Source: Treponema sp. (GTDB lineage: Bacteria > Spirochaetota > Spirochaetia > Treponematales > Treponemataceae). From it: a DNA stretch of 64,000 nucleotides. Both the position numbers and the translations under genes were made by a program. Every line of letters begins with the position of its first letter. Within the stretch, counting starts at the first letter, position 1. This document shows, piece by piece, positions 39,532 through 41,738 of this stretch. The notes below the pieces were generated by a model. The model saw only the letters and a program-made list of their open reading frames with translations, was not told the origin of the DNA and ran no database searches. Where the stretch lies: assembly GCA_014804005.1 (NCBI GenBank), contig JAAVAP010000018.1, positions 109,332 through 173,331 of the forward strand, written 5' to 3'.

Positions 39532-41205
39532 TTACTGATTTAACGCGCTGACGATTGCCGCAATTCCTGCGCGTCCGACATTGCTCGAACGTCCCACGCC
39601 CCAAATTTGGCGGCCGTCTTCCATCGTGAGCTGAACGTAACCCATCGCGCGAGTGTCGTTTCCCGTGCCAATCGAATGCTCATGGAAAGAAACGATGTTG
39701 AATCGCGGCGCGGGAGTTTGCTTCATCGCGTTCGCGAAAGCGTCGAGCGGACCGTTTCCCTGCGCGGAAATTTTATACGGCGTTCCCTTGTAGACAATAT
39801 CGGCGTTGCACAAAACTCGCTCTTCCGCATCCGCGCCAGTCGCGCCTTCCAAGTGCGTTTCCACAAGTTCCACGATTTTAAGCGGTTCGGTAAGTCCAAT
39901 CCAATGCTTTGTGAAAATGTCGTAGATTTCGTCGGGACGCAATTCGCGTTGCGCCTTGTCTGCGAATTCTTTTATCACGGCACCGATATCGGGATGCATT
40001 CCCTTTGGCGGAATAATACCGAAGCTGTTTTCCAAAATATACGCAGCCCCTCCCTTGCCGCTTTGCGAATTTATCCTGATGATTCCTTCGTACTGCCTTC
40101 CGATGTCGTGCGGATCGATCGCCAAATACGGAACGTCCCAAACGGCGTTTTCTGGCATGTTCACGCGCGCAGCCATTCCTTTGCGAATCGCGTCTTGATG
40201 CGAGCCGGAAAACGCAGTGTAAACCAAATCGCCCACATAAGGCGTGCGCGGATGAATCGACATTTCGGTGAGACGCTGATATTCTTCCGCGATTTCGGGC
40301 AGATTGGAAAAATTCAATTCGGGATCGATTCCGTGGCTGAACATATTGAGCGCGACCGTAACAACGTCGAGATTTCCCGTGCGTTCGCCGTTTCCGAAAA
40401 GGCTTCCTTCCACGCGGTCCGCGCCGGCGAGCAATCCCATTTCGCAAGTGGCGACTCCTTCGCCGCGATCGTTGTGCGGATGAAGGCTCACGATCACATT
40501 TTCGCGCCCAGAAATGTGCGTGCAAAAATATTCGATTTGGTCGGCGAACGTGTTCGGCATCGCAACTTCAACCGTCGTGGGCAAATTCAAAATGATTTTG
40601 TTCTGCGCCGTGGGGTTCCATTCGTTTTTCACCGCCTCGCAAATTTCCACTGCGTATTCGATTTCGGTGTTGGAAAAACTTTCGGGCGAATATTCCAGCT
40701 GGATTTTCGTTTCCTTTTCGCGCTCCACGCATTCCTTGACGCACCTCACGCCGTCCACCGCGATTTGCTTGATTTCCTCTTTCGTTTTTCCGAATGTGTA
40801 TTTTCGCTGGGCGGGCGAAGTCGAATTGTAAATGTGGAAAATCGCCCTCGGCAAACCGCGAATCGCCTCGAACGTGCGCTTTACCAAATGCTCGCGCGCC
40901 TGGCACAAAACTTGAATCGTAACGTCGTCGGGAATGCGATTGTCCTCGATGAGGCGGCGCATAAAATTGAATTCAGTTTCGGAAGAACTCGGAAAGCCGA
41001 CTTCGATTTCTTTGAATCCGATTTTCACAAGCAAGTCGAAAAACGCGAGCTTCTGCTCGATGCCCATAGGATTCACCAAGGCCTGATTTCCGTCTCGCAA
41101 ATCCACGGAACACCAAATCGGCGCGCGCGTGATTTGCGCGTCCGGCCATTTTCTGTTCTGAATGTTCACCTTTGGATATGGAACATATTTTCCGTTTGAA
41201 TTCAT
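39532..41205 (-). CDS. leuA: 2-isopropylmalate synthase, LeuA type 2
   Basis: 557 residues from the ATG at 41205 (GGAGG upstream). The length and N-terminus (KWPDAQITRAPIWCSVDLRDGNQALVNPM) mark the long LeuA2 form. Catalytic barrel motifs: DLRDGNQ, SLHPHNDRGEGVA with the metal HxH, and GNGERTGNLDVV. A C-terminal allosteric LeuA dimer domain runs from about residue 425 to the end (GTPYKISAQGNGPLDAFANAM, MGYVQLTMEDGRQIWGVG). It condenses acetyl-CoA and 2-oxoisovalerate, the first committed leucine step, with Leu feedback expected. Transcription is controlled by the leader peptide and terminator at 41220-41336. leuB and leuCD are not in the window. Confidence 0.95.
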   Translation of the reverse strand: MNSNGKYVPYPKVNIQNRKWPDAQITRAPIWCSVDLRDGNQALVNPMGIEQKLAFFDLLVKIGFKEIEVGFPSSSETEFNFMRRLIEDNRIPDDVTIQVLCQAREHLVKRTFEAIRGLPRAIFHIYNSTSPAQRKYTFGKTKEEIKQIAVDGVRCVKECVEREKETKIQLEYSPESFSNTEIEYAVEICEAVKNEWNPTAQNKIILNLPTTVEVAMPNTFADQIEYFCTHISGRENVIVSLHPHNDRGEGVATCEMGLLAGADRVEGSLFGNGERTGNLDVVTVALNMFSHGIDPELNFSNLPEIAEEYQRLTEMSIHPRTPYVGDLVYTAFSGSHQDAIRKGMAARVNMPENAVWDVPYLAIDPHDIGRQYEGIIRINSQSGKGGAAYILENSFGIIPPKGMHPDIGAVIKEFADKAQRELRPDEIYDIFTKHWIGLTEPLKIVELVETHLEGATGADAEERVLCNADIVYKGTPYKISAQGNGPLDAFANAMKQTPAPRFNIVSFHEHSIGTGNDTRAMGYVQLTMEDGRQIWGVGRSSNVGRAGIAAIVSALNQ

Positions 41206-41219
41206 ATTTCCTCCAAAAT

Positions 41220-41278
41220 AAAAAAGACTGCCGCCCAAGCGACAGTCTGCATTTGCAAAATGATTTTACAGAACCGTC
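41220..41278 (-). promoter_or_regulatory. leuA transcription attenuator: terminator and overlapping antiterminator
   Basis: Minus strand. The terminator is GACTGTCG-cttggg-CGGCAGTC (41247-41226) followed by six T (41225-41220), 15 nt before leuA. The antiterminator pairs GACGG(t)TCTG (41278-41269) with CAGACTGTC (41249-41241), which takes the 5' arm of the terminator. The first antiterminator arm begins at the leader-peptide stop codon, so a ribosome finishing the peptide blocks it (terminate), while one stalled at the Leu codons leaves it free (read through). Confidence 0.8.
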
Positions 41279-41336
41279 AACTTTGGCGTTTTTTGAGGAA
41301 CTCCGATAGAAGCAACAATCCTGCAAAATTTTTCAT
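41277..41336 (-). CDS. leuL: leu leader peptide (19 residues, four consecutive Leu codons)
   Basis: Reads MKNFAGLLLLSEFLKKRQS, with Leu codons TTG TTG CTT CTA at positions 7-10 and CTC at 14. GGAGGG lies 8 nt before the ATG, within the last codons of the RRM gene, and the ATG overlaps that gene's stop as TGATG. Length, Leu run, stop position at the first antiterminator arm and the terminator before leuA all fit classical ribosome-stalling attenuation. Too short for the ORF track. Confidence 0.8.
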   Translation of the reverse strand: MKNFAGLLLLSEFLKKRQS

Positions 41337-41635
41337 CAATATCGCCCTCCGCGATCGAAGCCGCCTTCGCCAAAACGCGGGCGCGGTTTTTTTTCTTCCG
41401 CCACATTCACGCGAATTCTGCGACCTTCGAATTCCTTGCCGTTCAAATCCGAGATGGCTTTTTCCGCCGCCGCTTCGTCTGCCAATTCAACAAAACCAAA
41501 ACCCTTGGACTGACCAGTAGCCCTGTCCTTGATAACCGTTGTTGAAACAATTTCTCCAAACTGCGCGAACAAACCGCCCAGCGATTCCTCTGTCGTAGAA
41601 TAACTCAAGTTTCCTACATAAAGCTTTTTAGCCAT
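41336..41635 (-). CDS. Single-RRM RNA-binding protein
   Basis: 99 residues from the ATG at 41635 (AAGGA upstream); the 21 earlier codons of the track ORF are leader. RRM: RNP2 KLYVGNLSY at about 3-11, RNP1 KGFGFVEL at about 43-50, ending at RIRVNVAE (about 80), then a short Arg/Gly-rich tail (RFGEGGFDRGGRY). This is the small bacterial RRM type, like cyanobacterial Rbp proteins. Its stop overlaps the start of the leu leader peptide, so the RRM gene and the leu attenuator share a transcript. Promoter TTGACA-17-TAGAAT lies 75-103 bp upstream. Confidence 0.93.
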   Translation of the reverse strand: MAKKLYVGNLSYSTTEESLGGLFAQFGEIVSTTVIKDRATGQSKGFGFVELADEAAAEKAISDLNGKEFEGRRIRVNVAEEKKPRPRFGEGGFDRGGRY

Positions 41636-41709: not shown

Positions 41710-41738
41710 ATTCTAGCACTGCGGCGAAAAATTGTCAA
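41710..41738 (-). promoter_or_regulatory. Promoter of RRM gene and leu leader
   Basis: TTGACA (41738-41733), 17-nt spacer, extended -10 TGC-TAGAAT (hexamer 41715-41710); leader about 68 nt. Confidence 0.78.

Follow-up and report, generated by a model that had tools for sequence, protein, structure and literature searches.

A predicted leucine-responsive transcription attenuator upstream of leuA in Treponema

A short open reading frame with four consecutive leucine codons, followed by an intrinsic terminator, lies just upstream of the 2-isopropylmalate synthase gene (leuA) in a 64,000-nt stretch of Treponema sp. DNA (hereafter the window), and raises the question of whether translation of a leader peptide controls leuA in this spirochaete or whether the ORF and the hairpin are there for some other reason. 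The elements of the locus, in the order in which they would be transcribed, are as follows.

41710..41738, minus strand: promoter-like site, TTGACA-17-TAGAAT, 5' of the RRM gene (consensus scan, 11/12 matches)
41336..41635, minus strand: small gene for an RRM RNA-binding protein, probable start MAKKLYVGN... (PF00076, 2.5e-25; NCBIfam NF058537, 3.2e-31)
41346..41350, minus strand: Shine-Dalgarno (SD) sequence GGAGG of the leader ORF, 9 nt 5' of its ATG (sequence)
41277..41336, minus strand: leader peptide ORF, 19 sense codons plus TGA, MKNFAGLLLLSEFLKKRQS (Leu-rich leader kept across the genus)
41307..41318, minus strand: control codons TTG TTG CTT CTA (four Leu), which are segment 1 of the 1:2 pairing
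41295..41300, minus strand: TTCCTC, the window's form of a UUCUC motif (motif count and fixed position in leaders)
41267..41288, minus strand: segment 2, the antiterminator 5' arm, overlapping the last leader codons and stop and also pairing with the Leu-codon region (duplex energies)
41232..41251, minus strand: segment 3, the antiterminator 3' arm, made of the 5' arm and loop of the terminator plus the first part of the terminator 3' arm (duplex energy; partner-swap test)
41220..41248, minus strand: intrinsic terminator, 3:4 hairpin 41248-41225 plus T6 to 41220 (folding; stem covaries)
39532..41205, minus strand: leuA, 2-isopropylmalate synthase, 557 aa, the predicted regulated gene (NCBIfam NF002991; Pfam HMGL, IPMS_D2, LeuA_dimer)

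The identity of leuA is secure, its product scoring 797 bits on NCBIfam NF002991 against a curated cut-off of 455. A 99% match to this LeuA is found in an uncultured Treponema MAG (L107), and related leuA genes occur in T. parvum, T. berlinense, T. bryantii and many rumen and gut MAGs. The leader ORF reads ATG AAA AAT TTT GCA GGA TTG TTG CTT CTA ... TGA, and its start codon shares one base with the stop codon of the RRM gene (TGATG). A first-pass annotation of this DNA had described just such a 19-codon ORF with a good ribosome-binding site, and both are present as described. It had also placed a terminator with U6 15 nt before leuA; the terminator and its U6 stand, while the distance is corrected to 14 nt. 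The stem-loop (41248-41225) has 10 pairs and a 4-nt loop, with T6 at 41225-41220, folds at -17.0 kcal/mol (z -4.2) and begins 28 nt after the leader stop, which is itself 71 nt from the leuA ATG. A search of the 80 nt preceding the window's leader found no promoter-like site; the closest candidate promoter for RRM-leader-leuA is the TTGACA-17-TAGAAT site, and we infer that the transcript in this species starts from the promoter of the RRM gene.

All three classical attenuator pairings are present: 1:2, between the Leu codons and the stop-codon region, the 2:3 antiterminator, and the 3:4 terminator. The Leu codons themselves are part of the RNA switch, as segment 1. The short antiterminator originally proposed, which borrows the 5' arm of the terminator and begins exactly at the leader stop codon, is a real pairing but not the full one, as the best 2:3 duplex (41288-41267 with 41251-41232; -25.4 kcal/mol, z -5.4 relative to shuffles) starts 9 nt 5' of the stop and also involves the loop of the terminator and the beginning of its 3' arm. 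Through the shared terminator 5' arm, antiterminator and terminator are mutually exclusive. The 1:2 duplex (-16.9 kcal/mol) dominates the fold of the free 119-nt leader (z -3.75), which consists of a long 1:2 hairpin and the 3:4 terminator.

That ribosome position selects between these structures, as the first-pass annotation had held, is borne out by an equilibrium computation in which the region covered by a ribosome, assumed to reach 12 nt past the codon, was kept single-stranded. The probability of the terminator is 1.00 without a ribosome and 1.00 with a ribosome on the stop codon, and falls to 0.07, 0.03, 0.01 and 0.01 when the first, second, third and fourth Leu codon, respectively, is occupied. 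Together with a short Leu-rich ORF that is predicted to be translated, a terminator between it and leuA, and the conservation in relatives described below, this makes a ribosome-mediated transcription attenuator that couples leuA expression to charged tRNA-Leu very probable. When Leu-tRNA is plentiful, the ribosome would reach the leader stop and cover segment 2, allowing the 3:4 terminator to form; when Leu-tRNA is short, the ribosome would stall on the four Leu codons, opening 1:2 and freeing segment 2, which could then capture segment 3 as the antiterminator and let RNA polymerase continue into leuA. Without translation 1:2 would form, and termination would be the default. Stalling on the Leu codons, and leucine as the signal, are what this arrangement would imply.

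The conserved Leu-rich leader, pairings and compensatory changes that the first-pass annotation had proposed looking for in other Treponema genomes were all found. We searched for an ATG-initiated ORF that has four or more Leu among six codons and a stop 10-70 nt before an intrinsic terminator. This architecture precedes leuA in 69 of 96 nonredundant Treponema loci, with LeuA 61-100% identical to that of the window, against two matches in 942 kb of control DNA taken from elsewhere in these loci; on both strands of the 64-kb window the only match is the leuA leader. Some of the leader-negative loci are threshold misses, for example one in T. parvum (L073) with three adjacent Leu codons. The leader occurs throughout a LeuA tree except at a few isolated loci and in a clade of 20 around T. 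bryantii; because it is absent from that clade the element is not indispensable. The leuA genes of this clade that have no leader include L040, L044, L048, L054, L101, L102 and others. A covariance model of the element matched 46 of 59 Treponema genomes, with all strong matches at leuA, and none of 39 genomes of other genera; two weak second matches (G007, G016) proved to be plain terminators with no Leu-rich ORF.

The pairings were tested on 51 nonredundant leaders, at most 85% identical to one another. When each arm was given the partner of another locus, a procedure that removes shared ancestry only in part, the mean energy of 2:3 rose from -19.3 to -15.0 (z -10.2) and that of 1:2 from -11.8 to -9.0 (z -8.9), and in neither case was any of 20,000 permutations as low as the true pairing. 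Dinucleotide shuffles gave a mean z of -2.7 for 2:3 (significant in 75% of loci) and of -2.1 for 1:2 (significant in 62% of 69 loci), and in the terminator stem 8 of the 9 predicted pairs show changes on both sides across the 51 loci. At equilibrium the full leader switches as cleanly as that of the window in only 11 of the 51; on this modelling, most loci would need the antiterminator to be formed before the 3' arm of the terminator is transcribed. When nascent chains were folded that stop at the terminator loop, the terminator 5' arm paired mostly with upstream sequence in 48 of the 51 loci if the ribosome was stalled, versus 4 if it stood on the leader stop. This test is only moderately discriminating, since such pairing is also fairly frequent with shuffled spacers; only 21 loci beat 90% of those.

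Codon choice within the leader is equally distinctive. CTA makes up 149 of 271 leader Leu codons (55%) versus 13 of 1848 (0.7%) in the downstream leuA genes (p 2e-135) and 2.5% of Leu codons in other ORFs of the same loci, and at least one CTA is present in every one of the 51 leaders, although in that of the window it is only one of the four Leu codons. The window's genome has a single tRNA-Leu(UAG) gene and four other tRNA-Leu isoacceptors. In the leu attenuator of Salmonella, replacement of CUA by CUG lowers sensitivity (Carter et al. 1986, as cited in PMC1183508).

Between the Leu codons and the stop, 41 of 51 leaders carry TTCTC (3.0 expected), and five more, including that of the window, carry the variant TTCCTC. 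Counted from the ATG the motif lies at +34 nt (sd 2.5), and counted from the first Leu codon at ~21 nt. Because it occurs in all three reading frames at a fixed place, it is an element at the nucleotide level and not a feature of the peptide. Pairing of UUCUC with the leuA ribosome-binding site was considered and rejected for want of co-variation (z +1.4), and a polymerase pause site or a site for a loop-binding factor are guesses only. A TTCTC-like sequence also occurs 3' of the His run in two hisG leaders from other families (L282, L289).

In most relatives the leader ORF seems to be expressed differently from that of the window. Of 50 testable loci, 31 have a TTGACA-like/TATAAT-like promoter whose end lies 5-8 nt upstream of the leader ATG, with a gap of exactly 6 nt in 23 of them versus 0.9 expected from shuffling (L009-L050 and others have a -10 box ~6 nt before the ATG), and an SD-like 4-mer precedes only 7 of 51 leaders versus 31 of 51 of the leuA genes themselves. 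As judged from these promoter distances, transcription in most relatives appears to start at the leader AUG, so that the leader ORF would be leaderless in the sense of having no 5' UTR. An RRM gene is directly upstream in 11 leuA loci, which form a single branch of the LeuA tree that includes the window (100% support). The basal member of this branch (L009) retains TTGACT-17-CATAGT-6-ATG in the interval from RRM to leader. No such promoter is present in the window or its nearer relatives, whose leader begins at the RRM stop or directly behind it, in several cases with an SD. On this comparison the SD-led, RRM-overlapping leader of the window is the exception among its relatives and its clade probably derived, and the simplest account would be that the leader was rewired into the RRM operon. 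A fuller scenario, which we regard as possible but rather doubtful, is that spirochaete attenuators were built on leaderless ORFs with UUCUC ~34 nt downstream keeping the starts of polymerase and ribosome in step, and that the window's clade lost the promoter, overlapped the leader with RRM and gained an SD, making the switch operon-internal.

The position of the hairpin in the window, between RRM and leuA and behind an ORF that starts within the RRM stop, would also suit a simple terminator of the RRM gene with a chance reading frame in front of it. The relatives contradict this, since dozens of genomes have this ORF and hairpin before leuA with no RRM gene there, and the Leu run, the rare codons and the alternative pairings are all conserved; we consider it extremely unlikely. 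No more probable is a leader that, independently of leucine, promotes leuA translation through reinitiation or coupling. Many short leader genes, those of Spirochaetales among them, have been proposed to act by reinitiation over distances of 10-13 nt, with no leucine case in the main text (Korolev et al. 2016, PMC4833913), and here too a short ORF lies near leuA, which has its own SD; yet the 71 nt from stop to ATG greatly exceed the distance that this model assumes, and the terminator, the pairings and the CTA bias would all be left without explanation.

T-boxes do occur in this order of spirochaetes, so a leucine- or tRNA-binding riboswitch, whether a T-box or a new class, might instead drive the terminator, with the ORF incidental. 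They were detected in 20 of 23 genomes from other families of the order, one per genome in most, and of eight examined (L143-L150) seven precede thrS and one trpB (L149). In Treponema, by contrast, the T-box covariance model (E <= 0.001) found none in 36 genomes, that of the window included, in agreement with the first-pass annotation, which had argued against a T-box. Rfam gave no match at gathering score anywhere in the window, and at a permissive threshold the leader region returned only chance-level matches and no leader family. The segment is moreover nearly all coding or taken up by two competing hairpins, leaving little room for an aptamer, and we judge a riboswitch very unlikely. Attenuation by a translated leader therefore remains our reading of the locus.

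Similar leaders were sought before ilvB, leuC and hisG in Treponema and none was found. Directly before leuC in the window's genome (L187), ~200-280 nt upstream, there is a small ORF (MQKKIFVDGMFDDGAAEKVAAAVKAVAGVTNCEANPMKAQVLVDFDG...) whose product is heavy-metal-associated-domain-like. In other families of the order, leaders rich in Ile/Val and followed by terminators precede ilvB (L178, L179), His-run leaders with terminators precede hisG at six loci (L281, L282, L287, L289, L299, L302; for example MNHHHHHGYSSRGA and MIRNCHHHHHHSFFSGDA), all six with a -10 box 6-9 nt before the leader, and two genomes from two other families (G059, G077) have Leu-rich leaders with terminators at LeuA genes too. 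Because other families carry Ile/Val, His and Leu leaders, attenuation seems to be common in the order, more than a single oddity. A phylum-wide search for leaders at LeuA-type genes yielded one doubtful match, a weak negative given that most loci barely reach the start of the gene.

The logic is that of enterobacterial leu attenuation, as had been suggested at the outset, and the predictions of that analogy testable at the sequence level all held. With leuL of Salmonella and E. coli the element shares four adjacent Leu codons, a short leader, the 1:2, 2:3 and 3:4 pairings and a terminator just before leuA, and with the Salmonella attenuator the use of rare CUA control codons (cited in PMC1183508). 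Unlike leuL, it has a different leader sequence in an unrelated phylum, and it matches no known leader family in Rfam; neither sequence nor covariance ties it to a described family, as descent from that of enterobacterial leuL would entail. A further difference is that the leader ORF of most relatives seems to have no 5' UTR and that of the window stands behind RRM, apparently in one operon. Transcripts that start at the leader ATG or are termed leaderless are described for trpL of Sinorhizobium meliloti (PMC7298713) and the ilvB leader of Corynebacterium glutamicum (PMC11857589), which most Treponema relatives would resemble in being leaderless; those leaders serve other amino acids in other phyla, and the window's leader, unlike them, is SD-led. 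T-box leaders likewise sense charged tRNA at a terminator/antiterminator, as predicted here, but need no leader ORF; they are absent from the Treponema genomes searched and present in the order's other families.

Leader-peptide attenuation has been described chiefly in Proteobacteria and Actinobacteria; according to a 2010 survey, leader peptides were at that time known from these two groups only, to which it added Firmicutes cases of its own (PMC2965389). No description of a Treponema leu attenuator was found in a search of mostly open-access literature, which is consistent with the first-pass annotation's impression that the element is undescribed in this lineage. The mechanism is classical, and the phylum, as far as we have checked, is new for it; new as well are the lineage, the genus-wide spread, the leaderless leaders that relatives appear to have, the placement inside an operon in the window's clade and the UUCUC motif.

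To our knowledge, few regulators of amino-acid synthesis are known in the spirochaete phylum, and the element offers a predicted leucine-regulated one. With more than 50 natural variants, the majority apparently leaderless, it could also be used to probe how ribosome and polymerase keep step. A genus-wide element with a rare-codon bias, of a kind shown to matter in Salmonella, indicates that this solution either arose again in these bacteria or is much older than thought.
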